The translations under genes were made by a program, and so were the position numbers. A stretch of 64,000 nucleotides of DNA from Streptomyces sp. RPA4-2 (GTDB taxonomy: Bacteria > Actinomycetota > Actinomycetes > Streptomycetales > Streptomycetaceae): positions 4,402,001-4,466,000 of the forward strand of contig NZ_CP050975.2 of assembly GCF_012273515.2 (NCBI RefSeq). Direction: 5' to 3'. A model generated the notes under the pieces. That model saw nothing but the letters and a program-made list of their open reading frames with translations. It made no database searches and was not told the origin of the DNA. This document shows positions 5,965 to 54,531 of the stretch, in pieces; within the stretch, counting starts at the first letter, position 1; each line of letters starts with the position of its first letter.

Positions 5965-6963
5965 CTACAGGAACGCCAGGTCCACGACCCAGAAACTGGC
6001 CGCAGCCACCAACGCCGCCGCCGGCATGGTGATGAACCACCCCAGCACGATGTTCTTGGCGACACCCCACCGCACGGCGTTCACCCGCTTGGTCGCCCCC
6101 ACCCCCATGATCGCCGACGTGATGACATGCGTCGTGGAGATGGGCGCCTTGAACAGAAACGCCGTAGCGAACATGATCGACGCCCCGGTCGTCTCCGCGG
6201 CGAACCCCTGCGGCGGATCCAACTCGATGATCTTCCGCCCCAGCGTCCGCATGATCCGCCACCCACCCGCGTACGTACCGAGGGACAGCATCACGGCGCA
6301 GGAGATCTTCACCCACACCGGAATCGGATCGTCGGCGCCCTGGACGTCACCGATGACGAGCGCCATCACGACGATACCCATCGTCTTCTGCGCGTCCTGC
6401 AGACCGTGCCCGAGCGCCATACCGGCCGCCGAAACCGTCTGGGCTATCCGAAAACCCCTCTTGGCCTTGTGCGGGTTGGACCGGCGGAACAGCCACATGA
6501 TCGCGCACATCACCAGATAGCCGCCGATCAGGCCGACCACCGGCGACAGGAACATCGGGATGATGACCTTGTCGAGGACGCCGGACCACAGAACGGTCGT
6601 ACCGCCCGCGAGCGCCGCCCCCACCAGACCGCCGAACAACGCGTGCGACGAGGACGACGGAAGACCGAAGTACCAGGTGACCAGGTTCCAGACGATGGCC
6701 CCGATGAGCGCGGCGAAGAGGATGCCCATCCCCTTGGAGCCCTGGGGCGTCGCGATCAGACCACTGCTCACGGTGTGCGCGACCCCGCTGCCGAGGAACG
6801 CGCCCGCGAGGTTCATCACCGCGGCCATGGCGAGCGCGGCCCGGGGGGTCAGCGCCCGGGTGGACACCGACGTGGCGATGGCGTTCGCCGAATCGTGGAA
6901 GCCGTTCGTGTACGTGAATCCGAGCGCGACCCCGATGGTCACGATCAGCGCAAAGGTGTCCAC
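5965..6963 (-). CDS. Low-affinity inorganic phosphate transporter (Pit family)
   Basis: A 332-residue PiT-family permease that takes up metal-phosphate complexes using the proton gradient. The N-terminus carries the family signature GFHDSANAIATSVSTRAL, and the second half repeats a related GLPSSSSHALFGGLVGA. About ten membrane segments are visible. The family is often longer (about 400-500 residues), but this compact form is normal in Streptomyces next to a DUF47 partner. Its ATG lies six bases after the DUF47 gene, so the two form one operon. With pstSCAB convergent to it, the locus holds both high- and low-affinity phosphate uptake. Confidence 0.94.
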   Translation of the reverse strand: MDTFALIVTIGVALGFTYTNGFHDSANAIATSVSTRALTPRAALAMAAVMNLAGAFLGSGVAHTVSSGLIATPQGSKGMGILFAALIGAIVWNLVTWYFGLPSSSSHALFGGLVGAALAGGTTVLWSGVLDKVIIPMFLSPVVGLIGGYLVMCAIMWLFRRSNPHKAKRGFRIAQTVSAAGMALGHGLQDAQKTMGIVVMALVIGDVQGADDPIPVWVKISCAVMLSLGTYAGGWRIMRTLGRKIIELDPPQGFAAETTGASIMFATAFLFKAPISTTHVITSAIMGVGATKRVNAVRWGVAKNIVLGWFITMPAAALVAAASFWVVDLAFL

Positions 6964-6969
6964 GGAGCC

Positions 6970-7590
6970 TCAGGACTCCTTGACGGCGATGGTCTCCACC
7001 GTGTTCGCCACGTGTTCGAACGCGTCGGCCGCTTCCTCCAGCACATCCACGATCTGCTTGAGCTTCAGCACCTCGATGGCGTCGTACTTGCCGTTGAAGA
7101 GCTGGGCGAGCAGCTTGCGGTGGATCTGGTCGGCCTGGTTCTCGAGGCGGTTGACCTCGATCCAGTACTCGGTGAGGTTGTCCATGGTCCGCAGGTTCGG
7201 CATCGCCTCGGCGGTCAGCTCGGCCGCCCGCGCCAGCACCTCGATCTGCTGCTCCACACCCTTGGGGAGCTCCTCGACCTGGTACAGCACGACCAGGTCG
7301 ACGGCCTCCTCCATGAAGTCCATGATGTCGTCGAGGGACGAGGCCAGGTTGTAGATGTCCTCGCGGTCGAAGGGTGTGATGAAGGAGGAGTTCAGCTGGT
7401 GGAAGATCGCGTGCGTCGCATCGTCACCGGCGTGCTCCGCTGCCCGCATACGCTCTGCGATCTCGGCCCGGGCCGAGGCGTCGGCCCCGAGCAGTTCCAT
7501 CAGGAGTTTCGAGCCCGTGACGATGTTGTCCGCGGATGCGGAGAACATGTCGTAGAAGCTCGTCTCCCTGGGGGTCAGACGAAATCGCAC
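6970..7590 (-). CDS. DUF47 / PhoU-like partner of Pit transporter
   Basis: A 206-residue helical cytoplasmic protein of the DUF47 (PhoU-related) family. It starts with a GTG behind GAGG. The acidic helix pairs that hold metal in PhoU-like folds are seen as EHAGDDATH near residue 72 and DREDIYNLASSLDDIMDFME near 95. DUF47 proteins are nearly always encoded just before a Pit gene and are thought to gate or regulate it; that role comes from the family. It is first gene of the two-gene pit operon. A weak promoter candidate (TAGCAT on the minus strand, 7628-7633) lies about 40 bases upstream. Confidence 0.92.
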   Translation of the reverse strand: MRFRLTPRETSFYDMFSASADNIVTGSKLLMELLGADASARAEIAERMRAAEHAGDDATHAIFHQLNSSFITPFDREDIYNLASSLDDIMDFMEEAVDLVVLYQVEELPKGVEQQIEVLARAAELTAEAMPNLRTMDNLTEYWIEVNRLENQADQIHRKLLAQLFNGKYDAIEVLKLKQIVDVLEEAADAFEHVANTVETIAVKES

Positions 7591-7756
7591 GTGAGGTCCT
7601 CGGGGTCCTTTTGTTTCGGTCAGGCTGATGCTAGGCGCATCATCCGGCCACGGCTAACCGGCCGTCCCCCAGTGTCGCCCATGAGGCACAGTGATCAGCA
7701 CAGGGTCCGGTCCCGGCATCGGGCAAGGGCCCTATACCCAACGAAGTTCGATACCA

Positions 7757-7775
7757 TATACCTACCAGGGGTATA
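7757..7775 (+). promoter_or_regulatory. CsoR-type operator
   Basis: Inverted repeat TATACC/GGTATA with a seven-base spacer (TACCAGG), about 40 bases before the csoR start. It has the TACC...GGTA form of copper-sensor operators. Autoregulation is the likely role. It may also reach the divergent pit operon, whose start is about 170 bases away. Confidence 0.75.
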
Positions 7776-7814
7776 TGTAACCGACCTTTCCGGCGGGATC
7801 AGCAGGAGGACGCG

Positions 7815-8183
7815 ATGACGACCACCGAGGCCGGCGCGCCGGTGCCCTCCGGTGACACGCGGGAGACCGCGGAGGAGGTCGTGACCGACCACGACCGCGG
7901 TGTCCACGGCTACCACAAGCAGAAGGACGAGCACCTCAAGCGCCTGCGCCGGATCGAGGGCCAGATCCGCGGTCTGCAGCGGATGGTCGACGAGGACGTC
8001 TACTGCATCGACATACTCACGCAGGTCTCCGCCTCCACCAAGGCCCTGCAGTCCTTCGCCCTCCAGCTCCTGGAAGAGCACCTGCGCCACTGCGTCGCGG
8101 ACGCGGCCCTCAAGGGCGGCGACGAGATCGACGCGAAGGTCGAGGAAGCCACGAAGGCGATCGGCCGCCTGCTGCGTACCTGA
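7815..8183 (+). CDS. csoR: CsoR-family metal-sensing repressor
   Basis: A 122-residue repressor of the CsoR/RcnR family, which binds DNA as a helical tetramer and releases it on Cu(I) binding. The Cu ligands are all present: Cys64, His89 and Cys93, with the same 25- and 4-residue spacings as the M. tuberculosis protein. The core RLRRIEGQIRGLQRMV is typical. The N-terminus has about 30 extra, probably disordered residues. The ATG follows AGGAGG. No copper ATPase or chaperone gene is adjacent, so its regulated targets other than itself are outside the window. Confidence 0.92.
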   Translation: MTTTEAGAPVPSGDTRETAEEVVTDHDRGVHGYHKQKDEHLKRLRRIEGQIRGLQRMVDEDVYCIDILTQVSASTKALQSFALQLLEEHLRHCVADAALKGGDEIDAKVEEATKAIGRLLRT

Positions 8184-8249
8184 GAGCTGTCATCGTTCGC
8201 CCCCTCACCACGCCCGGCACCCACCAGGTGGGAGGCGAGGCGGCGGGAC

Positions 8250-8438
8250 CTACTCCTCCGTGCCGCTCTCCCGCGCACGCTCTTCGGCCACTTTCAGCAC
8301 CTCGTCGATGCTCTCCAGGCTGAGCCGGTCCTCATGGGCGGCCGACGCCGCGATGATCAGATCGCCGCACAGCTCGATCTCGGCGAGGGCCACGTGGTCC
8401 TGAACTGCCGTACCGCCGACCGGAGCCACGCGCGTCAC
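8250..8438 (-). CDS. Small conserved-looking protein, function unknown
   Basis: A 62-residue acidic protein starting with GTG behind AGGAAG. It reads as one compact helical domain (LAEIELCGDLIIAASAA, then SLESIDEVLKVAEERA). It has no membrane segment or signal. Codon use with G/C third positions and the good ribosome site support it as a real gene. I recognise no family beyond a Streptomyces-type hypothetical protein. Confidence 0.65.
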   Translation of the reverse strand: MTRVAPVGGTAVQDHVALAEIELCGDLIIAASAAHEDRLSLESIDEVLKVAEERARESGTEE

Positions 8439-8651
8439 CTCTTCCTGCCGTCACCGACTTCCTAGAGTAGGGAGCGGCCTACACACCGCGCATGGCACGG
8501 AAGGGCCATTTCCAGCCCCCAACCCCGCCTCCCACCCGGAGCCCGCCCAGGCACTCCGCGCCCCCGCGCCGCCCCCGGCTCGGGCCCCTACCCGGACTCC
8601 GCCGGCATGCACGACATGCCGCACACCCTTCACCCCGCGGTCGCCGCGCCT

Positions 8652-12594: not shown

Positions 12595-13596
12595 TCAGAC
12601 CGTGGTCGGCAGTGCTTTCGCGCCATCCTCGGTCACGCGCGTGGCTCCGAAGTAGTCGGGGGTGTCGATCGGGTCGAAGCGGATGACGGCACCCGTCCGC
12701 GGCGCGTCGATCATGTAGCCGCCGCCCACGTAGATGCCCACGTGCCGGATGGTCCGCGAGTTGGTGAGGTCGTCGGAGAAGAACACCAGGTCCCCCGGCA
12801 GCAGTTCCTCACGCGCGGGGTGCGGCCCGGCGTTGTACTGGTCGTTGGCGACCCGCGGCAGGGTGACCCCGACGCTTTCGTACGCGGCCTTCGTCAGACC
12901 CGAGCAGTCGAAGCGTCCGCCCTGGTCAGCGGTGCCGTTGCCGCCCCACAGATAGGGCGTGCCGAGCTTCTTCTGCGCGTAGTAGATCGCCGCCGCGGCC
13001 TGCCGAGACGGATCGACCCGGTTCACGGGCCGGGCGAAGCTCTGCTCCAGCGTCGTGATCGTCTTCACGTAGTTCCGGGTCTCCCGGTACGGCGGAACGC
13101 CTCCGTATTTGATGACGGCGTACGCCCCCGCGTTGTAGGCGGCGAGCATGTTCTCCGTGATGTTCCCCGGCGCGTCCTTCACGTACGAGGCGAGCTGGCA
13201 GTCGTACGAGGCGGCCGACGGAATCGCGTCATTCGGATCCCATACGTCGCGGTCGCCGTCGCCGTCGCCGTCGACTCCGTGCGTGGCCCACGTCCCCGGG
13301 ATGAACTGCGCTATCCCTTCGGCCTTCGCCGGGCTCTTGGCGTTCGGATTGAATCCGCTCTCCTGGTACAGCTGGGCGGCCAGCAGCGCGGGGTTGATCG
13401 CGCCGCACAGGTTTCCCCACTTCTGCACGAGTGTCTGGTACACGGCCGGCACCGCGCCCTTGGCGAGCCCGACCGAGCCTCCCCCGACCCCGCCCGCGAG
13501 GTTGCCCGCGACGATGTAGACCCCGACGACGAGCAGCATCACGAAGGAGAGTCCCGCCCCGGCGACAGCGGCCGCCACGACCCATGCCTTACGCAC
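12595..13596 (-). CDS. Bifunctional lytic transglycosylase / NlpC-P60 endopeptidase
   Basis: A 333-residue envelope protein that should cut both glycan strands and peptide stems of peptidoglycan. It starts with GTG (VRKAWVV) behind GAGGGG and has one N-terminal membrane anchor (about 5-30). An SLT (GH23) domain follows, with the catalytic Glu in QLYQESGFNPNA and AEGIAQFIPGTW further on. It ends with an NlpC/P60 domain with Cys in RFDCSGLTKAAY and His in RTIRHVGIYVGG. The same architecture is used by the wall-opening (VirB1-like) enzymes of Gram-positive conjugation systems. The gene lies about 2.7 kb from the type-IV-secretion-like cassette, in the opposite direction. Confidence 0.92.
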   Translation of the reverse strand: MRKAWVVAAAVAGAGLSFVMLLVVGVYIVAGNLAGGVGGGSVGLAKGAVPAVYQTLVQKWGNLCGAINPALLAAQLYQESGFNPNAKSPAKAEGIAQFIPGTWATHGVDGDGDGDRDVWDPNDAIPSAASYDCQLASYVKDAPGNITENMLAAYNAGAYAVIKYGGVPPYRETRNYVKTITTLEQSFARPVNRVDPSRQAAAAIYYAQKKLGTPYLWGGNGTADQGGRFDCSGLTKAAYESVGVTLPRVANDQYNAGPHPAREELLPGDLVFFSDDLTNSRTIRHVGIYVGGGYMIDAPRTGAVIRFDPIDTPDYFGATRVTEDGAKALPTTV

Positions 13597-13818
13597 CGTC
13601 AACCGCCCCTCGCCGCCCAGGAGTCCGCCGTCGCCAGTGTAGAGGCGCCCCCCGCGCCGCGGGACGATCACACACGAGGAGAAACCGCATGTGGCGGCCC
13701 TGCCGGGCCGGTCACGGCGCCCCCTGGGCAACTCCCTTGTGCCACAAGGCGGTAACACGCCAAAGTGGACACCCCGTCATGGCCGGAAGGCGCACGCGCG
13801 GGGCGCGGCGCTCCCCCG

Positions 13819-14577
13819 CTACTGCTCCTGTGTCGACCGGTACAGGTCCCGGGCCTCGTCCCCCAGGACCACGCTGTACGAGATGTCGTCGGTGTCCCCA
13901 CCCGCCTCGTGGCCGCCGATGACCCCGACGACCTCCCCGTACCCGTTCACCCAGGGGCTGCCGCTCGTGCCGCCGGCGAAGGCGGGGCAGGCGATGCGCT
14001 GCTGGGTGCGACTGTGCACGGTGGGCCTGTTCGTGCAGGTGATCGGGGCGTCGAGGGTGCTGGGGTAGCCGGTGACCGTCACGGCGGTCGCCCCGGTCTC
14101 CCGCCCCGTGACGAACGCGTTGCCGCCGACGACGTCCTCGACGCCCTTGCCGCCCTGGTCGGCGACGGTGGCGAAGGCGACGTCGCTGTCCTCGTCCTGG
14201 GCGCCGGTCCACGCGTCACCGACGTACGTCCTGCGGATCTCCCAGATGCCGTAGGGCGCCTTCCCGTCGCGGTATCCGGGCACGAAGCGCAGCTTTCCGC
14301 CGCCGTCCAGGCAGTGCGCGGCGGTCACGAGAAGGTTCCGTCCCTTGCTGCGCACGACGGACGCCGTACAGAAGTGACCGCCCTCCAGAGCGCCGCTGTC
14401 CCCGAACAGTGCGCCGACGCGCGAGGCCGCCACGGTACCGGAGGCCCGCGCGGTCACGCCGAGAGGCCCACGGCCGTCATCGGCGGCCGCGACGGAGGCC
14501 GATGTCGCGGCCAGCACGGCGACCGCGACGAACAGGGCGTTCCGCCTGGCACCAGGGGGACGAGTGATGCGCTTCAT
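13819..14577 (-). CDS. Secreted trypsin-like serine protease (S1)
   Basis: A 252-residue secreted protease. The start MKRITRPPGARRNALFVAV gives a Sec signal with likely cleavage after SVAAA near residue 32. The triad is visible: His88 in VTAAHC, Asp132 in EDSDVAFA and Ser205 in GGTSGSPW. Three cysteines lie in positions suited to disulphides (C70, C89, C181/C197). The ribosome site is weak. A 46-residue in-frame extension upstream lacks a signal and is rejected. Likely role is extracellular or wall-associated proteolysis. Confidence 0.9.
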   Translation of the reverse strand: MKRITRPPGARRNALFVAVAVLAATSASVAAADDGRGPLGVTARASGTVAASRVGALFGDSGALEGGHFCTASVVRSKGRNLLVTAAHCLDGGGKLRFVPGYRDGKAPYGIWEIRRTYVGDAWTGAQDEDSDVAFATVADQGGKGVEDVVGGNAFVTGRETGATAVTVTGYPSTLDAPITCTNRPTVHSRTQQRIACPAFAGGTSGSPWVNGYGEVVGVIGGHEAGGDTDDISYSVVLGDEARDLYRSTQEQ

Positions 14578-14930
14578 CGGTTCATACTCTGGCTCACGGA
14601 TCTGAGAGAAATCCTGAAACCACCTTGAGAAATTGCCATGAGTCGCCGGCGGAAACCGCCGTCCGGCCCACGTCCACCGAGCGTCCTCTCTCGCACTCCG
14701 ATCAATAGGCGTCACGCTACGTTACTCCAGTCACGTCCCACGCGCGCGGCAGCCGGATATCCACAGCCTGTGGACACTTGTCCCCGCGCTCCACACCACC
14801 CGGACACCGGACGCTCCGGGGCGCCCGGGAGAGGAAGACCTCCCGGGCTCGAGTACCCCCGAACCCCGACTGGACGCGGACCGCCCCGCCGACGCGACCG
14901 GCCCCGGATCCCCGTCCTGACGCGCCCCCG

Positions 14931-15605
14931 TCAGGACGTCGTCGGCGGATCTCCGGCCTGGGGCGCTCCGTCCCCGCCACCCCCGCCGTACGCCGCGGCC
15001 GTGCGGGCCGCGGCCCCCCTGGCGGCGCTCTCGGGTTCTCCGGCCGCGAGGCTCGCGCGGTACCAGCCCTCGCTGCTCAGCGTCACGAACCGGCGCCCGT
15101 CCTCGGACGCGAGCCAGGCCGTGCTCTCCTTCGGATCCACGGACCCACCGGACGAGAGATGGGCGGCGAGCCCCATCAGACCGAGGTCCCAGCCGACACC
15201 GACCGCGCCGGGTCCGTACTCCGCCCAGCGTTCCTCGTCGACGTGCGCGATGTGCGCCAGTTCGAAGCGCGTCACGGCTTTCGCCACCGCCGTCAGCCGG
15301 ACCTCGATCCAGCTGACCTCGCCGCCGAACTCCCAGGTGGCGGCGAAGCCCCGGGGCGGGTCGCAGCGCTCGACCGTGCCGCCCGCGTTGCCCTCCAACT
15401 GGTAGGTGCCACCGAGCCTCAGCTCCCCGGAGACCGGGAGGAACCAGCGTGGGATGCGCTGCGCGTTGGTGCAGGCGTCCCAGACCTCCTCGCGCGTCAC
15501 GTCGTACGTCTGGCGCACCGTCACCACCCGGGCCTCGCCGGACCTGCCGGCACGGGTACCGACCTGCCGCCGTACCGCGTCGATCTGAAGGTCGACATCG
15601 ATCAT
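14931..15605 (-). CDS. SRPBCC (AHSA1-like) family protein
   Basis: A 224-residue protein of the START/Bet v1-like superfamily. VTVRQTYDVTREEVWDACTN near residue 25 begins the fold, RIPRWFLPVSGELRLGGTYQ follows and the C-terminal helix WDLGLMGLAAHL closes the domain near 165. The last 40 residues are Ala/Gly-rich and probably disordered. The ATG follows GGGAG. These proteins bind hydrophobic ligands and are often encoded with ArsR regulators; no such regulator is next to it here. Function is not predictable beyond the fold. Confidence 0.85.
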   Translation of the reverse strand: MIDVDLQIDAVRRQVGTRAGRSGEARVVTVRQTYDVTREEVWDACTNAQRIPRWFLPVSGELRLGGTYQLEGNAGGTVERCDPPRGFAATWEFGGEVSWIEVRLTAVAKAVTRFELAHIAHVDEERWAEYGPGAVGVGWDLGLMGLAAHLSSGGSVDPKESTAWLASEDGRRFVTLSSEGWYRASLAAGEPESAARGAAARTAAAYGGGGGDGAPQAGDPPTTS

Positions 15606-16315
15606 GGAGTGCTCCCGGATCCGCTCGCTGGGCGGCCATCTCACCACCGACGACGTCCGAACCCGCGCAACTCCACGCGTTTCCCGTGAGCCCGGCCGAG
15701 CCGACGCCGCGCGACGGTCGCGCAGCCCGCGCCCCGACTCCCGGACGGACCCCGCCAAGTCCTGCTGCTTCTAAGGCTCCACGACCCGCGCCACCACCAA
15801 CGGCTGCCCCTGAGCGGTCAGTCGGACCGGCCTCGCGGAGGAACAGGTCTCGGCGACCGGCCACGGCCCGTTTCCCTGCCCCACGGTGACGGGGGATAGC
15901 CTGCGTGACGGCGGTCGCGCGTCCACATCCGGCAGACGTGCGACCCGGAGAACATCGGCTCGACCACCCGTCAGAATCGGGACGCGTCCGTGGCGCACCT
16001 ACGAGGCGAGCGGGGCGACTGTCCCGCGCGCGTCGTAGAAGGGGTTAACGACGGAACCACACGACAGGTTCCGCATCGACTTCATTGCCCGGCGTGACCT
16101 GCCGTGATACACAGAGTGACCATACGACTCTCCGCATACCGGCGCACGCCTCCCGAATGGGGCCCGCGTGCGCCGGTGGCAAGGGATTCGTACGAAACCC
16201 GCCAATCAATGACGCCAAGTCGACATGCGACGGCGTCATTGTCGGCGAGAATGGGCCCGACCTCTGCGCGCAGTGGCAGGGGGTGCAGAACTACCCACTA
16301 GGGGCGGTGACTTAC
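15606..16315. other. 710-base divergent intergenic region
   Basis: Separates the minus-strand SRPBCC gene from the plus-strand secretion-like cassette. A 75-residue minus-strand frame (15771-15998) has no ribosome site or recognisable content. An open frame in phase with the first cassette gene runs back to about 16085 but has no ribosome site; I treat it as leader. No terminator or repeat was recognised. The cassette promoter must lie here or in the leader. Confidence 0.5.
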
Positions 16316-16624
16316 ATGCTTTTCGCAGCCGACAAGGGCGACATCACCACAATCATCGGCGGGATCGCCCCGGACTGGGGTCCCTTCGGCAGCCTGGGCA
16401 ACGAAGCCAAGACGATGATCCAGGTCGTGATGGCGGTCGCCATCCTGCTCTGCCTCGGGATCGCGATCTGGGGAGCGGCCAAGCAACGCATCGGTGCGAC
16501 GGCGCTGCGGGACACCTTCAGCGCGGAACAGGGCAAGGGCCTGATCATCGCGGGCCTCACCGGGGTCTTCATCATCGGGTCCCTGGGCACGCTGTTCACC
16601 ATCGTGTACGGCATGGCCGTCTAG
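16316..16624 (+). CDS. Small two-TM protein, first gene of type-IV-secretion-like cassette
   Basis: A 102-residue protein with two membrane helices (about 34-55 and 75-102) joined by a polar loop (KQRIGATALRDTFSAEQGKG). The N-terminal 30 residues contain GGIAPDWGPFGSLGNEAK. Size, topology and first place in the operon resemble a VirB2-like pilin or a TrbC/Maff2-type small subunit, but there is no cleavable signal, so this is by context only. The ATG at 16316 follows AGGGGCGG. Longer in-frame starts upstream lack a ribosome site. Confidence 0.8.
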   Translation: MLFAADKGDITTIIGGIAPDWGPFGSLGNEAKTMIQVVMAVAILLCLGIAIWGAAKQRIGATALRDTFSAEQGKGLIIAGLTGVFIIGSLGTLFTIVYGMAV

Positions 16625-16802
16625 CCCCGGCCGGGGCGCCCGGCTCCACTCTCCTCCGTCTGTCCGATCCACCTGTCCGTCGCGCCCACCGGCTGAGGTT
16701 GCGTTTCCCTGATGTCGAGTCACCACACCGCGTCCGCGCGGAAACCAGCACGGCTACCGTCGTACTACGCGATTCAGCAGAGGTTGAGGGGGCGTACGCG
16801 GC

Positions 16803-17660
16803 ATGAGTCTCGGTGACGAACCCGGATACGGGGACGGCTCCCGCGGTGACGACGGGAGATACGGGGGCACGGGCCAGACCCGGACCCGGCTCCCCGACCG
16901 CCCCGGTGACGTCTACGGCGGCGCCCGCCGTGGACGCTCGTCCACACGCAGCCTGGTCACGGTGGTCGGCGTCGTGGTCCTCCTGATCGCCGCGATCGCC
17001 TTCGCGAACCGCGGAGGAGACGATTCCCCTTCTTCGGGCACCGGAGGCGGCAGCGGCGGCGCCAAGTCCGGAACCTCCCCGACGGCGGCCTCCGGGAACC
17101 GCCCGGTCGATTCGAAGACGAACGGGATTCCGGCGGGGTACAGCCACAACGTGCAGGGCGCTCAGAGCGCGGGGGCGAACTACGCGGTCGCGCTGGGCTC
17201 CGACGGCATGTTCAACACGGGTAAGCGTCATGCCATCGTGCAGGCGGTCGCCGATCCCAGCGCGCTGGACCGACTCCAGTCCGGCTTCGACGCGGACTAC
17301 TCGGCGAACTTCCTGAAGAAGATCGGCCTCGACACCGACGGCAGCGCGCCCACCGGAAGCACGTTCGTCAATCGCACCCTGCCGGTGGGCACCAAGGTCA
17401 CCTCCTCCAGCGACACCGCGGCCACGGTCGAGGTGTGGTGCAACAGCCTCTTCGGACTCACCGGCGAGAGCTCCACCAACCCTGTGACCAGCGGCTGGTT
17501 CACCGTCACCATGAAGCTGACCTGGAACGGCGACTGGAAGGTCCTGCAAACCAGCCAGAAGACCGGCCCGACCCCCGTCAACGGAGACAACGCCGTCTCC
17601 GGCGCCGACGAGATCGGCAAAGCGGTCGAGGAGTTCGGAGGGTTCACGTATGCCCGGTAG
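16803..17660 (+). CDS. VirB8/TcpC-like conjugal-transfer-type protein
   Basis: A 285-residue bitopic protein: a Gly/Arg-rich cytoplasmic N-terminus (1-48), one membrane helix (VTVVGVVVLLIAAIAF, about 52-67), a low-complexity Gly/Ser linker and a C-terminal extracytoplasmic domain. The latter has the alternating pattern of an NTF2-like fold (NPVTSGWFTVTMKLTWNGDW, near 225-244). This is the layout of VirB8/TcpC, which links channel and wall in type IV secretion. The ATG follows GAGGGGGCG. Its end overlaps the next gene by 11 bases. Confidence 0.75.
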   Translation: MSLGDEPGYGDGSRGDDGRYGGTGQTRTRLPDRPGDVYGGARRGRSSTRSLVTVVGVVVLLIAAIAFANRGGDDSPSSGTGGGSGGAKSGTSPTAASGNRPVDSKTNGIPAGYSHNVQGAQSAGANYAVALGSDGMFNTGKRHAIVQAVADPSALDRLQSGFDADYSANFLKKIGLDTDGSAPTGSTFVNRTLPVGTKVTSSSDTAATVEVWCNSLFGLTGESSTNPVTSGWFTVTMKLTWNGDWKVLQTSQKTGPTPVNGDNAVSGADEIGKAVEEFGGFTYAR

Positions 17661-18963
17661 CCCGCACCGCGCGATCAAGCTCACCGGCGTCGTAGCAGTC
17701 GTGCAGACCACAGCTGTGCTGCTGGCCTCCCACGCCTACGCGGCACCCACCCCGAAGGCCACCGACGACTCCTGCTCCCTGATCGCGGGCCCAGCCAGGA
17801 AGTACTGCGAGAACGGCAGCGGCTCCAGCGGCACCGGCGGCGCACCCCCCAGCCTCACCTCCACCCTCGACCCCCTCTCCTCCCTCGCCAAGGGCTGCGC
17901 CGACGCCGCGTCCTGGACCATCGACAAGCTCTCCTCCGCGGTCAACGACACGGCGAACGTCGACTTCACGAACCCCAAGTTCCTCCAGCAGTACGCCGTC
18001 GTCTTCGCGGCGTCGACGATCCTCACCCTCCTCCTGTGGCTGCTCGCCGTGGCGAAGAGGGCGGTACGAGGCGTCCCCCTCGGCACCGCGCTCTCCGAGG
18101 CGATCGGCTTCCTCTGGCTCACGGTGCTGGCGTCCGCGTTCACCCCGCTGATCCTCTACACCGTCGTCTCGGCCTCCGACGGCGTCACCGACGTCCTCGC
18201 CAAGACCACCGGCAACCAGACCGACACCTTCTTCGGCACCTTCTCCGGCGCACTCGCCAAGGGCGAGAACATCGGCGGCGGCCCGATCATGCTGATCGTC
18301 GTGTCCCTGGTCTCGATCCTCGCCGCCGGCGTCCTGTGGCTGGAGCTCGTCATCCGCGCGGCGCTCCTCTACGTCGGCGCCCTCCTCGGCACCGTCGTGT
18401 ACGCGGGCCTCGTCGACAAGAACCTGTGGGGTCACGTCCGCCGCTGGGCCGGCGTCATGATCGCCGTCATCCTGGTGAAACCGGTCATCGTGATAGTGCT
18501 GGGCCTGGCCGGCGCCCTGTCGACCGACAACGGCCCGGACTCCTTCTCCGCCGTCGTCTCCGGCCTCGCCATCATCCTGCTCGCCATCTTCGCCAGCGCC
18601 ATGATCTACCGCTTCGTCCCCGGCTTCGGCGACGAGATCGCGAACTCCCGCAACAACCGCATCATGCAAGGCGCCGAAGGCAAGGCCGCGGCCGTGATCA
18701 GCTCCCCGGCCACCCTCGTCGCCCAGGGCATCAAGACCCACAGCACCCGCGCCGACAACAACGGCGGCGGTGGCGGAGGCAACAGCGGCAGCCAGCCGCC
18801 CCGCCCCGCCAATCCCGCCTCCGGCGGCGTGGCGGCGCACAGCACCCGCACACCGAACGGAGGCGGCGGATCCGTCCCGGCCGCCGCGCCTCCGCCACGC
18901 ACGAGTCCCACCGGAAACACCCGCAACAGCAGTTCCAACCGCACGGGAGGTGAAGGGCGTTGA
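17650..18963 (+). CDS. VirB6/TrbL-like polytopic membrane protein
   Basis: A 437-residue membrane protein. A signal-like N-terminus (about 1-31, ending SHAYA) precedes a short Cys-bearing extracellular stretch. Six or so membrane helices follow (about 115-135, 150-175, 210-250, 265-287, 300-320). The C-terminal 110 residues are cytoplasmic, Gly/Asn/Pro-rich and disordered. The arrangement matches VirB6/TrbL channel components. It overlaps the gene before it by 11 bases and the next by a TTGA junction. Confidence 0.75.
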   Translation: MPGSPHRAIKLTGVVAVVQTTAVLLASHAYAAPTPKATDDSCSLIAGPARKYCENGSGSSGTGGAPPSLTSTLDPLSSLAKGCADAASWTIDKLSSAVNDTANVDFTNPKFLQQYAVVFAASTILTLLLWLLAVAKRAVRGVPLGTALSEAIGFLWLTVLASAFTPLILYTVVSASDGVTDVLAKTTGNQTDTFFGTFSGALAKGENIGGGPIMLIVVSLVSILAAGVLWLELVIRAALLYVGALLGTVVYAGLVDKNLWGHVRRWAGVMIAVILVKPVIVIVLGLAGALSTDNGPDSFSAVVSGLAIILLAIFASAMIYRFVPGFGDEIANSRNNRIMQGAEGKAAAVISSPATLVAQGIKTHSTRADNNGGGGGGNSGSQPPRPANPASGGVAAHSTRTPNGGGGSVPAAAPPPRTSPTGNTRNSSSNRTGGEGR

Positions 18964-20519
18964 CGACCGAGTCCCACGTGTCCCATCCGGTCACGCCCCG
19001 CCGTACATATCTGATCGGCCGCGCCCGGCCGAACGCGATGGTCGGCCGCAATCGCGAGTCCGGCGAGATCGTGCTCATCATCGCGGGCGCGTTCCTCGGC
19101 ATGATGTGCGGTCTGCTCGTCCCCGTACTGTCCCTGCGGATCGTGCTGCTGATGGGCTTCCCGCTGGTCGCCCTCGCCGCGGTGTACGTCCCGTACAAGC
19201 GCCGTACGTTCTACAAGTGGTTCGAGATCAACCGCAGTTACAAGCGCAGCCTGCGCCGCGGGACGGCGTACCGCAGCAACGTCATGGAGGCCGGCACCCA
19301 CCTCGACGGCCGGGAGATCGAGATCGGACCGCCGCCCGGCATCGGGCGGATCTCCTGGCTCGCGGCCCCCTTCGGGCCGGACGAGATCGCCGTGCTCCTG
19401 CACGCCGACCGACGCACCGTCACGGCCGCGATCGAGATCGAGGGTCCGGGCGTCGGCCTGCGCGACAGCGAGGACCAGGAAGCCCTCGTCGACCGCTTCG
19501 GCACCCTCCTCAAGCACGTCGCGAACGGCGACGGCTTCGTCACCCGCCTCCAGATGCTCGCCCGCACCCTGCCCGCCGACCCGGACGCCCACGCCAAGGA
19601 CGTCTCCGTACGCGGGGACGAGAAGTCCCCCGGCTGGCTGCAGCAGTCGTACGACCAGCTCCAGTCCATGGTGTCCACCAGCAGCGAGCAGCACCGCGCC
19701 TATCTCGTCGCCTGCATGCACTGGACCCGCGAACTCGCCGCCGAGGCCCAGGCCATGGCGCGGGCGGCCCGGCCGCAGGGCGGCAAGAAGCTCGACCGGG
19801 ACGCGGGCCTCGCCGTCGTCATGGCGCGCGAGCTGACCGACATCTGCTCGCGGCTCCAGGAAGCCGACATCCGCGTACGCCAGCCCCTCGGCCAGGGCCG
19901 GCTCGCCTCCCTCGTGCACTCCATGTACGACCCCGACCACCCCATCGACCACATCCAGGCGATGACGAAGCGCAACGCCTGGCCCGCCGAGCTCGACGCC
20001 ATGGAGCCCACCTACCTCCAGGCGAAGACCCGGGAGTCCTCCACCCGCGCGCCCTGGTGCCACGCCACGGCCTGGGTGAAGGAGTGGCCGATGACCCCGG
20101 TCGGCGTCAACTTCCTCGCCCCGCTGCTGGTCCACACCCCGGACGTCATCCGCACGGTCGCCGTCACCATGGACCTCGAACCCACCGAGATCGCCATCGA
20201 GCGCATGCTGACCGAGAAGACCAACGACGAGGCCGAGGCCAGCCGCCAGGCCAAGATGAACCGCACCGTCGACCCCCGCGACATCGCCTCCCACAACCGC
20301 CTCGACCAGCGCGGCGAGGACCTCGCGAGCGGCGCCGCCGGAGTGAACCTCGTCGGCTACATCACCGTCTCCTCGCGCTCCCCCGAGGCCCTCGCCCGAG
20401 ACAAGCGCACCATCCGCGCCTCGGCCGGCAAGTCGTACCTGAAGCTGGAGTGGTGCGACCGCGAGCACCACCGGGCCTTCGTCAACACGCTCCCCTTCGC
20501 CACCGGTATTCGGAGGTAA
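18960..20519 (+). CDS. SCO6880-type protein of the secretion-like cassette
   Basis: A 519-residue protein. The start is a TTG overlapping the previous stop (TTGA), supported by GGAGG nine bases upstream; no ATG or GTG in phase suits better. Two close membrane helices (about 37-75) at the N-terminus resemble the PrgI domain that precedes VirB4 in Gram-positive systems. The remaining soluble part resembles the N-terminal domain of VirB4/TraC-like ATPases without a P-loop. I relate it to the family named after SCO6880 from memory. It probably forms one unit with the ATPase encoded next. Confidence 0.75.
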   Translation: MTTESHVSHPVTPRRTYLIGRARPNAMVGRNRESGEIVLIIAGAFLGMMCGLLVPVLSLRIVLLMGFPLVALAAVYVPYKRRTFYKWFEINRSYKRSLRRGTAYRSNVMEAGTHLDGREIEIGPPPGIGRISWLAAPFGPDEIAVLLHADRRTVTAAIEIEGPGVGLRDSEDQEALVDRFGTLLKHVANGDGFVTRLQMLARTLPADPDAHAKDVSVRGDEKSPGWLQQSYDQLQSMVSTSSEQHRAYLVACMHWTRELAAEAQAMARAARPQGGKKLDRDAGLAVVMARELTDICSRLQEADIRVRQPLGQGRLASLVHSMYDPDHPIDHIQAMTKRNAWPAELDAMEPTYLQAKTRESSTRAPWCHATAWVKEWPMTPVGVNFLAPLLVHTPDVIRTVAVTMDLEPTEIAIERMLTEKTNDEAEASRQAKMNRTVDPRDIASHNRLDQRGEDLASGAAGVNLVGYITVSSRSPEALARDKRTIRASAGKSYLKLEWCDREHHRAFVNTLPFATGIRR

Positions 20520-20526
20520 GGCCCTG

Positions 20527-21951
20527 ATGCGGGATCCGCTGTCCGCCGCCACCGACACCTTCACGTCCTTCCTCTTCGGCAAGGTCGAGACGACCCGGCT
20601 GCCGGTCCGCACCTCCACGGGCCAGGCCCAGGCCGTCTACCTGCCCACCGCCGCACCCGGCCTCGGAGACTCCGGCGTCATCATCGGACGCGAGGTGTAC
20701 TCCGGGAAGGGCTACATCTACGACCCCTTCCAGCTGTACGGGCAGCAGCTCCCGGCCCCGCACTGGCTGGTCCTCGGCGAGTCCGGCAACGGCAAGTCGG
20801 CGCTGGAGAAGACCTACGTCCTGCGCCAGCTGCGCTTCCGCGACCGGCAGGTCGTCGTGCTCGACGCCCAGGGCGAGGACGGGGTCGGCGAATGGAACCT
20901 CATCGCGGAGGAGCTGGGAATAACTCCCATCCGCCTCGACCCCACGGCCGCCCTCGACATGGGAATCCGGCTCAACCCGCTCGACCCGGCGATCACCACC
21001 ACCGGCCAGCTGGCCCTGCTGCGGACGATCATCGAGGTCGCCATGGGCCACGGCCTCGACGAACGGTCCGGCTTCGCGCTGAAGGTCGCGCACGCCTACG
21101 TCAACGAGACGATCGTCGAGCGCCAGCCGGTGCTGATGGACATCGTCGAGCAACTGCGCCACCCCGAACCGGAGTCGGCCGAGGCGATGAACGTCGCCAT
21201 AGACGACGTACGGGCCTGGGGCCTGGACGTGGCCCTGGTGCTGGACCGCCTCGTCGACGGCGACCTCAGGGGCATGTTCGACGGCCCCACGACGGTCGGC
21301 ATCGACCTGGACGCCCCGCTCATCGTCTTCGACCTCTCCCACATCGACCGCAACTCCATCGCCATGCCCATCCTGATGGCGATCGTCGGCGTGTGGCTGG
21401 AGCACACCTGGATCCGGCCCGACCGCAAGAAGCGCATCTTCCTGGTGGAGGAGGCGTGGCACATCATCAACAGCCCCTTCGTCGCCCAGCTCTTCCAGCG
21501 TCTGCTGAAGTTCGGCCGACGCCTCGGCCTGTCCTTCGTGGCGGTGGTGCACCACCTGAGCGACGTGGTCGACGGAGCCGCGGCCAAGGAGGCCGCCGCG
21601 ATCCTGAAAATGGCCTCCACCCGCACGATCTACGCCCAGAAAGCCGACGAGGCACGGGCTACGGGACGGGTGATCGGCCTGCCCAGGTGGGCCGTGGAGA
21701 TCATCCCGACCCTGACCCCGGGCATCGCGGTCTGGGACGTCAACGGCAACGTACAGGTCGTCAAACACCTGATCACGGAGACCGAACGGCCCCTCGTCTT
21801 CACCGACCGCGCCATGACCGAGTCCTCCGCCGATCACCTCGCCGACGACGCGCTGCGCGCCGCGGAACTGGAGGCCGAGGAGCGGGCGGCGGCCTTCGTG
21901 GAGCAGCACCTCAGCGATCTCGACGGCACTTCCGAGTCCACGGTGGCATGA
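20527..21951 (+). CDS. VirB4/TraC-like ATPase
   Basis: A 474-residue ATPase of the VirB4/TraC class, which powers assembly or substrate transfer in type IV secretion. Walker A is GESGNGKS (84-91) and Walker B is RIFLVEEAWHII near residue 310. GRRLGLSFVAVVHHLSDVVD, near 335, is the conserved motif after Walker B. No membrane segment is seen. The GGAGG overlapping the previous stop serves as its ribosome site. The VirB4 N-terminal domain is missing from this protein but appears to be supplied by the gene upstream, so the ATPase is split in two. Confidence 0.85.
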   Translation: MRDPLSAATDTFTSFLFGKVETTRLPVRTSTGQAQAVYLPTAAPGLGDSGVIIGREVYSGKGYIYDPFQLYGQQLPAPHWLVLGESGNGKSALEKTYVLRQLRFRDRQVVVLDAQGEDGVGEWNLIAEELGITPIRLDPTAALDMGIRLNPLDPAITTTGQLALLRTIIEVAMGHGLDERSGFALKVAHAYVNETIVERQPVLMDIVEQLRHPEPESAEAMNVAIDDVRAWGLDVALVLDRLVDGDLRGMFDGPTTVGIDLDAPLIVFDLSHIDRNSIAMPILMAIVGVWLEHTWIRPDRKKRIFLVEEAWHIINSPFVAQLFQRLLKFGRRLGLSFVAVVHHLSDVVDGAAAKEAAAILKMASTRTIYAQKADEARATGRVIGLPRWAVEIIPTLTPGIAVWDVNGNVQVVKHLITETERPLVFTDRAMTESSADHLADDALRAAELEAEERAAAFVEQHLSDLDGTSESTVA

Positions 21952-21952
21952 G

Positions 21953-23479
21953 ATGAGACCGTACGAACGGGAACGGGAGCACGAGCGCGCGGGGGGCATC
22001 CCCGACGGTCTGCTGGTGGGAGTACTGGCCTTCCTCCTCGGCCTCACCCTGCTGGTGTGGTCCGCCACCGGGCTCGCCGGATGGCTGGCCCGGGGAGCCT
22101 GGCCGACGGCCGTCACCGTCGCCCGTACACCCCTGGCCCTGCGCCATCTGATCGGGCGGCCGCAGGACGTCGTGGGCGCCTGGCCGGACACCCCCGCCGG
22201 CCAGCTGTCGGGGTACGGGCTCTTCTGGGGCCTGTTCATCGGGCAGTTGATGGTGCTGGTCGTGCTGACGGTGTTCGTGATGGGCACGGTGGCGAGATGG
22301 CGGGCGGTGCGGGCACGGCGGAAGGCGGGCGCGTACGCGCCTCGGGCCGAGGCACGTGTGCCCGAACCCGCACAGGAACCGGTCCAGCCGTACGGCGAGG
22401 TCCCGAAGTCCGCCGAGGAGCCCGCGCGTCACGAGGTCCCGGTGCCCCGGCCCGCGCCCGAACCGGCCGAACTCCCCACGGAGGCACCGCGGACGACGCC
22501 CGCTCCTCTGGCGGCCGGCGGCGCACGCATGGGCGGCTGGGAAGGGACACCGGCCGCGGGCGCGGTCGTCCTCGGCCACGCCGAGACCCGCCACCCCACC
22601 GCCGCCCAAGCCGTACGGGACGCGGAGGGCCCCGTCCTGGTCGTCACCTCGGACCCGAGAACCTGGTCGGAGACCAAGGACGCCCGGGCCAAGCTCGGCC
22701 CGGTCCTCCTCTACGACCCCACCCACCGTTGCGACACCCCGGCCCGTCTCCACTGGTCCCCCGCCGCCGGCTGCGAGGACAAGGCCACGGCGGCCGCCAG
22801 AGCCGCCGCGCTGCTGGCCCCCGTACGCCCTACCGCCAAGGTCGACCACGCCATGGCCGACGTCGCGGAAACGCTCCTGCGGAGCTATCTGCACGCTGCC
22901 GCCGTGGAGGGCAAGGCCTTCCGTCACGTCCACCGCTGGGCCCAGGGATCCCAGGTCCAGGACGCGGTACGGGCCCTGCGTACGAACCCCAAGGCCGCTT
23001 CCGGCGCGGCGGGCGAGCTCGAGGCCGCGCTCACCTCACACCCCGAACGCCGCGACATAGCGCAGGAACTGACGGCCCGCGCCCTGTCCTCGCTGTTCAC
23101 GGTCAACATCCGCGAGTCCTGTACGCCGAACCGAAATGACGCCCTGACTCTGGATTCCTTCGTGAACGAAGGGGGCACGCTCTATGTGGTCGGTGAACCC
23201 ATCGAGGACCCCAGGGCGAACCCCGGCGCCATGCCGCTCCTGACGGCCCTCGCCTCAAGCGTGGTCGAGCGTGGCCGGCGCATGGCCGAACGGTCATCCT
23301 CCGGTCGGCTCGACCCACCACTTACGCTCGTCCTGGACGACGTGGCCGCGGTCGCCCCGCTCCCTCAGCTCCCCGACCTGCTGACCGCCGGAGCGGGCCA
23401 GGGCCTTCCGACTCTGGCCCTGCTCCGTTCCCGGGAACAGGGCAGGGCCCGCTGGCCGCAGTACGAACTCCCGCTCTGA
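21953..23479 (+). CDS. TraG/VirD4-like coupling protein with degenerate P-loop
   Basis: A 508-residue protein with two N-terminal membrane helices (about 20-45 and 90-112), a Pro/Glu-rich linker (130-190) and a C-terminal ATPase-like domain. VVLGHAETRHPTAAQAV stands where coupling proteins have Walker A, and it lacks the GKT/S. A Walker-B-like LTLVLDDVAAV is present near 465, and GPVLVVTSDPRTW replaces the usual DPKGE-type segment. It begins one base after the VirB4-like stop. The domain order is that of VirD4/TraG coupling proteins, but ATP hydrolysis is doubtful. Confidence 0.75.
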   Translation: MRPYEREREHERAGGIPDGLLVGVLAFLLGLTLLVWSATGLAGWLARGAWPTAVTVARTPLALRHLIGRPQDVVGAWPDTPAGQLSGYGLFWGLFIGQLMVLVVLTVFVMGTVARWRAVRARRKAGAYAPRAEARVPEPAQEPVQPYGEVPKSAEEPARHEVPVPRPAPEPAELPTEAPRTTPAPLAAGGARMGGWEGTPAAGAVVLGHAETRHPTAAQAVRDAEGPVLVVTSDPRTWSETKDARAKLGPVLLYDPTHRCDTPARLHWSPAAGCEDKATAAARAAALLAPVRPTAKVDHAMADVAETLLRSYLHAAAVEGKAFRHVHRWAQGSQVQDAVRALRTNPKAASGAAGELEAALTSHPERRDIAQELTARALSSLFTVNIRESCTPNRNDALTLDSFVNEGGTLYVVGEPIEDPRANPGAMPLLTALASSVVERGRRMAERSSSGRLDPPLTLVLDDVAAVAPLPQLPDLLTAGAGQGLPTLALLRSREQGRARWPQYELPL

Positions 23480-23504
23480 CGACCGAGGCCGGCCGGTCGG
23501 CACC

Positions 23505-24050
23505 CTAGGACCGTGTGATCACGAACTCCAGATCCTGTGCCCCCTTGTCCCCCACGGACGCCGTGCTCCCGCCGGTCGGCACGAACCCGACCCGGCGGTA
23601 GAACGCCTCGGCGCGCCCGTTCTTCTCGTGCACGAACAGCCGTACGCGGTCCAGGCCGATCCCCCAGGCCCAGGCGAGCGCGGCGTCGAACAGCGCGTCC
23701 GTCAGACCGCTTCCCCGGTACTCGGGCCGTACGAAGACGCCCACCAGATGTCCCTGGTCCCGCTCGCTCATGTTCCCGAGGATGTCCAGCTCCCCGGTCC
23801 TCTCGACCAGCACGACCACGGAGCCGCGCCACACCCCGTCCGGTCCGACGGCCACGAACTGCCGCCGCTCCAGGACGCCTTCGGCGGCCCCCGTCGCCCG
23901 CTCCTGCCAGAACGAGTCGGGCCGGGCCACGGAGTCCTCGTACGTCTCCACGAAGGCGAGATGCGCGACGGGGTCCCGCAGCGCGGCGAGCCGCAGCTCC
24001 TTCACCGCACGCCACTCGTCGGCCCGTATGGACCGGATCACTTGATTCAT
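23505..24050 (-). CDS. GNAT-family N-acetyltransferase
   Basis: A 181-residue GNAT acetyltransferase. The acetyl-CoA site is visible in LVGVFVRPEYRGSGLTDALF (motif A, R-G-x-G form), and the C-terminal strand-helix KNGRAEAFYRRVGFVPTGG is typical. The start is the ATG at 24050; a long in-frame extension upstream is rejected as noncoding. Convergent with the secretion-like cassette, 25 bases from its end. Substrate unknown. Confidence 0.9.
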   Translation of the reverse strand: MNQVIRSIRADEWRAVKELRLAALRDPVAHLAFVETYEDSVARPDSFWQERATGAAEGVLERRQFVAVGPDGVWRGSVVVLVERTGELDILGNMSERDQGHLVGVFVRPEYRGSGLTDALFDAALAWAWGIGLDRVRLFVHEKNGRAEAFYRRVGFVPTGGSTASVGDKGAQDLEFVITRS

Positions 24051-24256
24051 ACGGCCACGGTAGACCTGAGGTACGCCCCCGTTCACCCGGATTTCGACAC
24101 GGGAATTCCATCCCTGAAATCCACCCTGCCGATCCCCGCCGTACAGGCCCCCGTCATGCTCTTCCCTGTACGACGTGCCGTACGACGTCCGTGTACGACG
24201 TTGCCACGCCACGGAATTGACGCCTACTGTCGCCGGTCTGCCAGGGAGAACGACGC

Positions 24257-25018
24257 ATGCCCAACGTCCCACTCGAAGAACTCCGTCACGTCATCCACCC
24301 TCCGGGCAAGCTGGAGAGCAGGGCGGAGCACTGGGCCGGCCGCCTCTACATGCGTTCCGTTTCCCTCCGGGTGACACGGCTGGCTCTCGGAACCCGCTTC
24401 TCGCCCAACCAGATCACCGCCGTGATGGTCGTCGCGGGCGTGCTCTCCGGGGTCGCGCTGGTCCTGCCGGGTCTGGGCGGCGCCGTGCTCTCCGTCGTCT
24501 TCATGCAGCTGTACCTTCTCCTGGACTGCGTGGACGGTGAAGTCGCGCGCTGGCGACGGCAGTACAGCCCGCTCGGTGTCTACCTGGACCGTCTCGGTGC
24601 CTATCTCGCCGACGCCGCCGTGATGGTCGGCATGGGCGTCCGGGCCTCCGAACTCGGCCTGGATCCTTACCTGGTGGCCGGCCTCGCGGCGGCGATCGGC
24701 GTCCTGCTCCTGAAGTCGTCCTCGGACCTCGTCCATGTGGCCCGCTCCGACAGCGGCATGGAGAAGGCGACCGACCAGTCCGTCGTCCCGCGCTCCAGCG
24801 GCCTCGCCCGGATACGCAGTCTCGCCTCCGCGGTCGGCCTTCACCGCCTGGTCAACGGCATCGAGTGCACCCTGCTGCTGCTCGTGACCGCGGTCGTCGA
24901 CGTCGCGCTTGGCGATCTGACGGCGACGCGCGTCGCGACGGTGGGCGTGACGGCCATCGTGTGGCTGCTCGTCCCCGCACACATCGTCTCGATCGTGGCT
25001 TCGTCCCGTCTGAAGTAA
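24257..25018 (+). CDS. CDP-alcohol phosphatidyltransferase family protein
   Basis: A 253-residue membrane enzyme of the class that joins CDP-activated lipid or alcohol substrates. The signature is D90-x2-D93-G94-x2-A97-R98, then G107-x3-D111, but the final catalytic Asp expected at 115 is Ala. Several membrane helices follow. The loss of the last Asp means the enzyme may use another base, or belong to a divergent subfamily, or be inactive. The ATG follows GGGAG. It has its own terminator and ends before the rRNA operon. Confidence 0.85.
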   Translation: MPNVPLEELRHVIHPPGKLESRAEHWAGRLYMRSVSLRVTRLALGTRFSPNQITAVMVVAGVLSGVALVLPGLGGAVLSVVFMQLYLLLDCVDGEVARWRRQYSPLGVYLDRLGAYLADAAVMVGMGVRASELGLDPYLVAGLAAAIGVLLLKSSSDLVHVARSDSGMEKATDQSVVPRSSGLARIRSLASAVGLHRLVNGIECTLLLLVTAVVDVALGDLTATRVATVGVTAIVWLLVPAHIVSIVASSRLK

Positions 25019-25048
25019 CGGCGCCCAGGACAGTCCACCGAACGCCTT

Positions 25049-25084
25049 CAGCCCCCACCTCCCGGCAACCGGGGGTGGGGGCTG
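25049..25084 (+). terminator. Terminator of the CDP-alcohol transferase gene
   Basis: A 16-bp stem with one bulged base and a three-base loop (25049-25065 with 25069-25084), followed by ATTGTT. It lies 30 bases after the stop. Confidence 0.85.
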
Positions 25085-25150
25085 ATTGTTGTGCGGGTAT
25101 CGAAGGGCCGGCGGCGACACTAAAACGAAGTGGCCCGTAAACGCAGAAAA

Positions 25151-25178
25151 CCCCCGTACCGATTTCCCGGTACGGGGG
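25151..25178 (-). terminator. rRNA operon terminator
   Basis: An 11-bp perfect stem (25151-25161 with 25168-25178, loop ATTTCC) just past the 5S gene. In the minus direction it is followed by TTTTCTGC, giving a true U-tract. This is a canonical intrinsic terminator. Confidence 0.9.
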
Positions 25179-25193
25179 TCTCCTTCAAAATTT

Positions 25194-25312
25194 GTTCGGC
25201 GGCGTCCTACTCTCCCACAGGGTCCCCCCTGCAGTACCATCGGCGCTGTGAGGCTTAGCTTCCGGGTTCGGAATGTAACCGGGCGTTTCCCTCACGCTAT
25301 GACCACCGAAAC
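25194..25312 (-). rRNA. 5S ribosomal RNA
   Basis: About 119 bases. In the minus direction it begins GTTTCGGTGGTCATAGC and ends GGACGCCGCCGAACA, whose ends pair. The loop regions CCCGGTTACATTCCGAACCC and AGTAGG are those of actinobacterial 5S RNA. The ends are placed by comparison and may be off by one or two bases. Confidence 0.95.
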
Positions 25313-25397
25313 ACTATGAAACTGTCAACCGGAGCCGTGGCATAGCTACGACGGTTGTTCGTGGTTTCAGAACCAACACAGTGGACGCGAGCAACTG

Positions 25398-30359
<4,962 letters not shown>

Positions 30360-30535
30360 ATGTTTTCCCGTAATCGGGACGACACCACGAGAGCGGAACC
30401 AGGAAGAGGAATAATCCTCCCGGTTCACAGCGTCCTCGCTGTGCGCCTACCCCAAGGGGCAGGACTTTTTCAAAGGAACCTCGCCCCGACCGATCGGCCG
30501 GAGACGGGGTATCAACATATCTGGCGTTGATTTTT

Positions 30536-54342: not shown

Positions 54343-54366
54343 GTGGGCGCGCTCCTTTCCTTCCTT

Positions 54367-54531
54367 CTCGCCTACCGGGTTAGCTGACGGGTTCGGAGCA
54401 GGAAGGTCTCCTACGCGCGTCAACCCACGGTGTCTCCACCGTGAAAGACGCTCGATTCACCCCAAGTTGGTGGTTCCCCGGTTCCCTCGCGGGATTCGGC
54501 GCGTGCGCACGGAGCCGTCTCTTGTGACGGC
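54367..54531 (-). ncRNA. c-di-AMP (ydaO/yuaA) riboswitch
   Basis: In the minus direction the leader of the M23 gene carries the ydaO signature elements in order: GCCGAATCCCGCGAGGGAAC, then CGGGGAACCACC, TTGGGGTGAATC, GTAGGAGACCTTCCTGC, and CCGAACCCGTCAGCTAACC ending in GGTAGGCG. These match the conserved core of the c-di-AMP riboswitch, which in actinobacteria controls wall hydrolases and usually turns expression off when c-di-AMP is high. The aptamer ends about 25 bases before the start codon. The remainder of the gap up to 54725 shows no gene. Confidence 0.92.

Follow-up and report, generated by a model that had tools for sequence, protein, structure and literature searches.

The Streptomyces cmd operon as a likely domesticated type IV secretion system with a degenerate coupling protein

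The genome of Streptomyces sp. RPA4-2 is one contig of 9.86 Mb, and the window analysed here is a stretch of 64,000 nucleotides of it (positions 4,402,001-4,466,000) in which six plus-strand genes at 16316-23479 resemble components of a type IV secretion system (T4SS). In order, these encode a 102-amino-acid membrane protein with two helices, possibly a VirB2/pilin-like subunit (cmdF-like, SCO4131; 16316-16624); a predicted VirB8-fold protein with one membrane helix (cmdE-like, SCO4130; 16803-17660); a polytopic VirB6/TrbL-like membrane protein (cmdD-like, SCO4129; 17650-18963); the putative N-terminal half of a VirB4, having a pair of membrane helices within residues 34-76 (cmdC-like, SCO4128; 18960-20519); the VirB4 ATPase half, whose Walker A lysine is residue 90 (cmdB-like, SCO4127; 20527-21951); and a degenerate VirD4 coupling protein that lacks the P-loop lysine and the C-terminal part (cmdA-like, SCO4126; 21953-23479). 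The GC content of third codon positions (0.84-0.95) was coding-like in all six. A preliminary description of the window had proposed a compact plus-strand operon here, and its coordinates were confirmed along with its junctions, namely an 11-base overlap (17650-17660), a TTGA overlap (18960-18963) and a one-base gap (21952).

Judged by gene order, gene features, neighbourhood and the published descriptions of the SCO genes, the operon is the orthologue of cmdABCDEF (SCO4126-4131) of S. coelicolor (Xie et al. 2009, PMC2782261). It had been taken as undescribed, which was incorrect, as the available text of that paper already contains hints of a T4SS. The two operons share the same six genes in the co-directional order F-E-D-C-B-A, an SCO6880-like CmdC, an ATPase with Walker lysine 90 and a two-helix CmdF (two helices are predicted for SCO4131 in the part of PMC2000904 available). 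The surroundings fit SCO4115-SCO4142, with Scr4115 at 46454-46562 and a PstS-type gene upstream at 1059-2300, SCO4142 being pstS in the accessible part of PMC6585502. According to the sections of PMC2782261 available, the cmd genes are co-transcribed, the cmdB transcript climbs with aerial growth and CmdB is located in the membrane fraction. Every single cmd null except that of cmdA forms light-grey colonies, the cmdB and whole-operon nulls show abnormal branching and poor septation, and actinorhodin is overproduced in the cmdB, cmdD, cmdE and whole-operon nulls. Mutants of S. lividans and S. avermitilis are likewise defective, indicating a sporulation role in all three species (PMC2782261); the developmental role suggested in the preliminary description is therefore on record for the orthologous operon. 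A transposon screen identified cmdBCDEF, together with tgdA, as downmodulators of actinorhodin, cmdA not being named in the text available (PMC6585502).

CmdB matched Pfam AAA_10 (E 5.7e-13) and the VirB4 structure 4ag5 in the PDB (E 4.3e-6), with K90 as the Walker A lysine. CmdC matched the SCO6880 family (E 4.2e-53) and its profile had no match among PDB sequences; on its structure model it has the VirB4 N-terminal fold, the ATPase half being CmdB. CmdB and CmdC would thus together supply the VirB4 ATPase and N-terminal domain of a T4SS, in line with the PrgI/VirB4-N-like protein and VirB4-like ATPase named in the preliminary description. Ratios of nonsynonymous to synonymous substitution (dN/dS), calculated here and below for six near Streptomyces pairs, were 0.02-0.06 for CmdB and 0.06-0.11 for CmdC, and sequence comparison thus places both under strong purifying selection. 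Two mutagenic primers printed in the available part of PMC2782261 had no match within three substitutions in locus L077, used as a stand-in. When translated they fit CmdB around lysine 90 in one case and around a lysine numbered 413 in the other, and their labels, K90A and K404A, appear to be swapped, with encoded changes that differ from the names.

CmdE is, on its structure model, a VirB8-fold subunit such as a T4SS contains. Structure comparison by VIA-align set VirB8 chains apart from the other candidates, which upholds both the VirB8/TcpC-like call and, with the CmdC fold and the CmdB matches, the T4SS homology of the operon. A Foldseek search with CmdE returned no match at E 0.001 or better and was headed by plastid division proteins; profiles of CmdE and CmdD found no match among PDB sequences, and the CmdE family gave chance-like matches only in Pfam. 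TrbL_4 of Pfam was matched by 5 of 17 members of the CmdD family (best E 3.4e-4), the window's own protein not among them, and T4SS_pilin weakly by 3 of 17 members of the CmdF family (best E 0.0076), again excepting the window's own protein. dN/dS was 0.18-0.25 for CmdD and 0-0.07 for CmdF, in dN the least changed subunit after CmdB. Homologues of both proteins are present on mobile loci.

The CmdA profile matched TrwB (E 3.2e-7), so the VirD4 homology in the earlier label of a TraG/VirD4-like protein stands, with the qualification that the P-loop and the C-terminal part are lost. The 80 Streptomyces loci yielded 71 complete copies, nine loci being without one. None of the 71 has the P-loop lysine at the VirD4 columns, where arginine is usual (VAPRESRR, LGPAETRH); the Walker B pair is DD in 67, ED in three and a gap in one; and all but one (70/71) end 39-48 residues past Walker B, compared with 151-178 in four mobile VirD4s. 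P-loop-like pattern matches in three copies (L029, L036, L070) lay outside the P-loop columns and were rejected. The P-loop was kept in nine of the ten mobile-locus VirD4s checked (L120-L122, L142, L143, L146-L149), the exception being L150, whose VirD4 homologue is spread over two frames with no P-loop by pattern. Incomplete VirD4-like pieces at class level were left out (L112, L115, L116 and L118, with no P-loop by pattern, and L111, with one). At 18 loci from other genera of the order (L123-L140), CmdA was long at six, a membrane stub at three and not found at nine; among the long forms, that of L129 is split over two frames and that of L137, from another family, has GPARSGKA. When the best-ranked candidates were scored in the nine genomes without cmdA at the locus, four gave no match to the CmdA/VirD4 profile, four held a VirD4 with intact P-loop in a separate T4SS cluster (G344 also had a partial match at a contig end), and in the ninth, G114, the match was L150, about 7 kb from another VirB4. 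A pseudoenzyme fits the Streptomyces protein best, in agreement with the published genetics, where cmdA is the sole single null without a visible defect (PMC2782261, as available). Across the order, these alignments and locus surveys indicate a coupling protein that persists as a pseudoenzyme in Streptomyces, is reduced to a membrane stub in some genera and is absent from others.

Mobile loci L120, L121, L142 and L143 carry homologues of the whole set of six genes, arranged as in the operon, and relatives of CmdB occur in 201 plasmid records, all below 60% identity, with 49% the best among the 40 listed. CmdB itself was present in every Streptomyces genome sampled (101 of 101, with best matches at 89-100% identity), in 61 of 61 genomes and 17 of 17 genera of the family, and in 80 of 80 genomes of the order at an identity of at least 80%, these samples being overlapping ones that include the window's own genome, and the match being in two pieces in G121 and G357. 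A class sample of 196 contained a single match above 50% from outside the genus, 78% in G161, a fragmented assembly with 6% contamination. The 24 cmd rows of the tree formed one clade (98/99) with the families nested within it; several mobile rows are long branches of unsure placement. A synteny survey, as proposed in the preliminary description, placed cmdC, cmdB and cmdA at all 80 named Streptomyces loci, cmdD at 77, cmdE at 75 and cmdF at 71, counts that include loci at contig ends. Both the presence of CmdB in every sampled genome of the order and the single clade bear out the proposed chromosomal residency.

A TrwC-type relaxase accompanied the mobile form in all five records or genomes concerned (the records of L120-L122; G090 and G130). 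None was found in the window's genome, other relaxase classes not having been searched for genome-wide, and neither relaxase nor integrase was found by Pfam in 24 called flanking genes at 308-50785, a scan that did not take in every called gene. The absence of a nearby relaxase noted in the preliminary description thus held. No tRNA gene lies nearer than 56177 (att repeats were not searched for). The scans made found neither of the marks of a conjugative system, a VirD4 with a P-loop and a relaxase, and the nearby integrase and sporadic distribution of an integrative conjugative element were likewise not seen. It is very probable that cmd is a domesticated T4SS.

A gene for a wall hydrolase with Pfam SLT and NLPC_P60 domains lies on the minus strand at 12595-13758 and is, by position, tgdA (SCO4132), a gene treated by Xie 2013 as cited in the available part of PMC6585502. 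The preliminary description had placed it at 12595-13596 and linked it to the operon; the coordinates needed correction, and the link was borne out by a MOBF plasmid and by the loci of other genera. In 17 of 18 loci from other genera the SLT-NlpC gene neighbours cmdF in divergent orientation, the exception being L132, and it is present in the available flank of 36 of the 80 Streptomyces loci, the rest either running into a contig end or carrying different genes at that place. On the MOBF plasmid pMDJK44.2 (L121) a bifunctional lytic transglycosylase/C40 gene, a TgdA homologue (E 3e-88), directly precedes the operon homologues, which suggests that TgdA came with the machine as its VirB1. The module thus contains a VirB1-like wall hydrolase. 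At L132 (G117, 6267-8484), CmdE and CmdD were not found between CmdF and CmdC, nor an SLT-NlpC gene upstream; relatives of CmdD (55% and 47%) are present elsewhere in G117. In the window, two minus-strand genes separate tgdA from the operon, for a trypsin-like protease (13819-14715) and an AHSA1-like protein (14931-15758), which were found in the available flanks of 23 and 11 of the 80 Streptomyces loci, respectively.

On balance we favour the reading that cmd descends from a conjugation-type T4SS of plasmids, entered the chromosome before the order diversified and now serves as a developmental exporter or assembler cut off from DNA transfer; that it is an active exporter or assembler at all is, taken alone, somewhat probable. 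More tentatively, a plasmid conjugation machine may have become, without relaxase or coupling ATPase, an exporter or pilin assembler that is driven by ATP, spans the wall and acts on the envelope of the aerial hypha itself. The transport, its substrate and its site of action are inferred. The kept core would comprise CmdC and CmdB (VirB4), CmdE (VirB8), CmdD (VirB6/TrbL-like), the two-helix CmdF and TgdA (VirB1-like). During aerial growth, CmdB docked on CmdC would use ATP to move a substrate independently of a coupling protein, through or into a conduit of CmdD and CmdE that TgdA would let through the wall. One possible substrate is CmdF, built into a pilus-like or wall-embedded structure; another is a protein that arrives at the machine from the side of the membrane or the wall, as in Ptl and the Brucella system, both T4SSs without VirD4. 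An exporter or pilin assembler is favoured because the kept parts are those for T4SS subunit assembly and wall crossing and the lost parts those for fetching DNA. In Agrobacterium tumefaciens, VirB4 is reported to be required for the pilus and VirD4 to be dispensable.

Known systems offer partial parallels. Actinobacterial conjugative plasmids such as pMDJK44.2 carry same-order homologues of all six genes with the SLT/C40 gene directly before them but, unlike cmd, encode a VirD4 whose P-loop is intact and, on the same sequence record, a TrwC-type relaxase. The T4SS of SLP2 reportedly belongs with these plasmid systems among the closest to cmd. As described in the available text of PMC12102498, the relaxase-poor T4SSs of Patescibacteria resemble cmd in being monoderm, chromosomal and co-opted from conjugation, with the coupling protein often distant, but are tied to life on a host whereas cmd is tied to the development of the bacterium itself. 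As in cmd, a VirB core and a VirB4 occur with no coupling protein in Ptl of Bordetella pertussis and VirB of Brucella, but these are diderm protein exporters with an outer-membrane core, for which the cmd genes have no subunits (PMC12857230 and PMC12102498, in the parts available). By analogy, the existence of VirD4-less and of relaxase-poor monoderm T4SSs would also favour an exporter or pilin assembler.

Several observations weigh against the reading of cmd as a T4SS-derived exporter. No secretion, pilus or complex has been demonstrated for Cmd proteins, and general envelope disturbance could be the source of the mutant phenotypes. The VirB6/TrbL-like and VirB2-like assignments of CmdD and CmdF are weak, drawn from sequence matches; the structure model of CmdC is of moderate confidence, and CmdE evolves fast (dN/dS 0.37-0.59). 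CmdA has a dN/dS of 0.15-0.30 and is no pseudogene, and is therefore of some use in Streptomyces, not a plain relic.

Rather unlikely, in our estimate, is a static envelope scaffold, in which the former T4SS would move nothing and would, as a membrane assembly using ATP, hold TgdA and other wall enzymes in place where branches or septa form. It would accommodate the common antibiotic phenotypes of tgdA and cmd mutants and their action in aerial hyphae (PMC6585502, as available), the adjacency of the SLT-NlpC gene across the order and the lack of a known Cmd substrate. It sits less well with the purifying selection on CmdB and CmdC and with the requirement for K90 in complementation, although the authors cautioned that the mutant protein was possibly unstable (PMC2782261, as available); nor would it require that CmdF be retained, yet CmdF is so little changed. 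We consider improbable a channel for moving or positioning chromosomal DNA as sporulation septa form, an idea considered by the 2009 authors. CmdB does belong to the VirB4/FtsK-like ATPases, and anucleate spores reach 8% in the cmdB null and 6% in the whole-operon null versus 0.1%, but missegregation could stem from the branching and septation defects, transfer of an SLP2-derived plasmid was unchanged in the null (PMC2782261, same sections), the coupling ATPase is dead or gone, and no TrwC-type relaxase was found in the genome and no relaxase of any kind in the flanking genes scanned.

Conjugation in trans, with a VirD4 or relaxase of resident mobile elements serving the Cmd core, seems very improbable: it could draw on the four genomes that lack cmdA at the locus and encode an intact VirD4 within another T4SS cluster, but the four without any profile match and the window's own genome, which has CmdA alone among the best-ranked profile candidates scored, speak against it. 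That the operon is a functionless remnant of an integrative conjugative element, as plasmid ancestry and an eroded coupling protein might suggest, is contradicted by the published mutant phenotypes (PMC2782261, as available). Its presence in all sampled genomes and low dN/dS also oppose this, and we give the idea almost no credence.

Most descriptions of T4SSs concern gene transfer or delivery into other cells. If the favoured reading of cmd as a developmental exporter or assembler is true, it would be a vertically inherited T4SS with a housekeeping developmental role across a whole order, its coupling protein in successive states of decay, and would offer a minimal monoderm core, in some genera without a coupling protein, for mechanistic work. 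It would also explain why cmdA is the sole dispensable cmd gene, unite cmd and tgdA, published as two gene sets, in a single ancestral module and turn the 2009 suggestion into subunit-by-subunit testable predictions. In the available text of PMC2782261, the authors noted the VirB4 likeness of CmdB and left a type IV-like channel as a possibility; the assignments of the remaining subunits, the dead coupling protein, the descent across the order and the connection to TgdA go beyond it. Within the literature searched, where cmd or SCO numbers occurred in the accessible parts of PMC2782261, PMC6585502 and PMC2000904 and T4SS-like treatment in the first only, most subscription papers lying outside its scope, the CmdA decay series, the folds of CmdC and CmdE, descent throughout the order and the ancestral TgdA link appear to be new. 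Passages naming Streptomyces in the part of a 2025 nomenclature review available concerned TraB or were references.

The operon is preceded by a conserved candidate promoter and leader stretch at 16046-16315. Both the promoter-side block, which holds an inverted repeat (CGGAACC, 8 bases, GGTTCCG; 16052-16073), and the leader (16186-16315) show strong conservation across 72 Streptomyces loci and partial conservation in other genera. A coding leader was rejected, and the stretch is read as non-coding, because its indels do not come in multiples of three and conservation is equal at all three codon positions. An RNA leader was also rejected, with no noteworthy Rfam match, a fold z-score of -1.18 and no compensatory pair among 30 sequences. 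A sigma-70 promoter scan of 15600-25200 found none. The cmdF-like gene most likely starts at ATG 16316, kept in 68 of the 72 loci; the TTG at 16085 given by a mechanical list of open reading frames was discarded, upstream indels not being multiples of three. Downstream of cmdA are genes for an acetyltransferase and a CDP-alcohol transferase and then a minus-strand rRNA operon (25194-30360). Further along, a cyclic di-AMP riboswitch (Rfam RF00379, 97 bits) was detected on the minus strand at 54354-54511, ahead of a called gene at 53305-54423.
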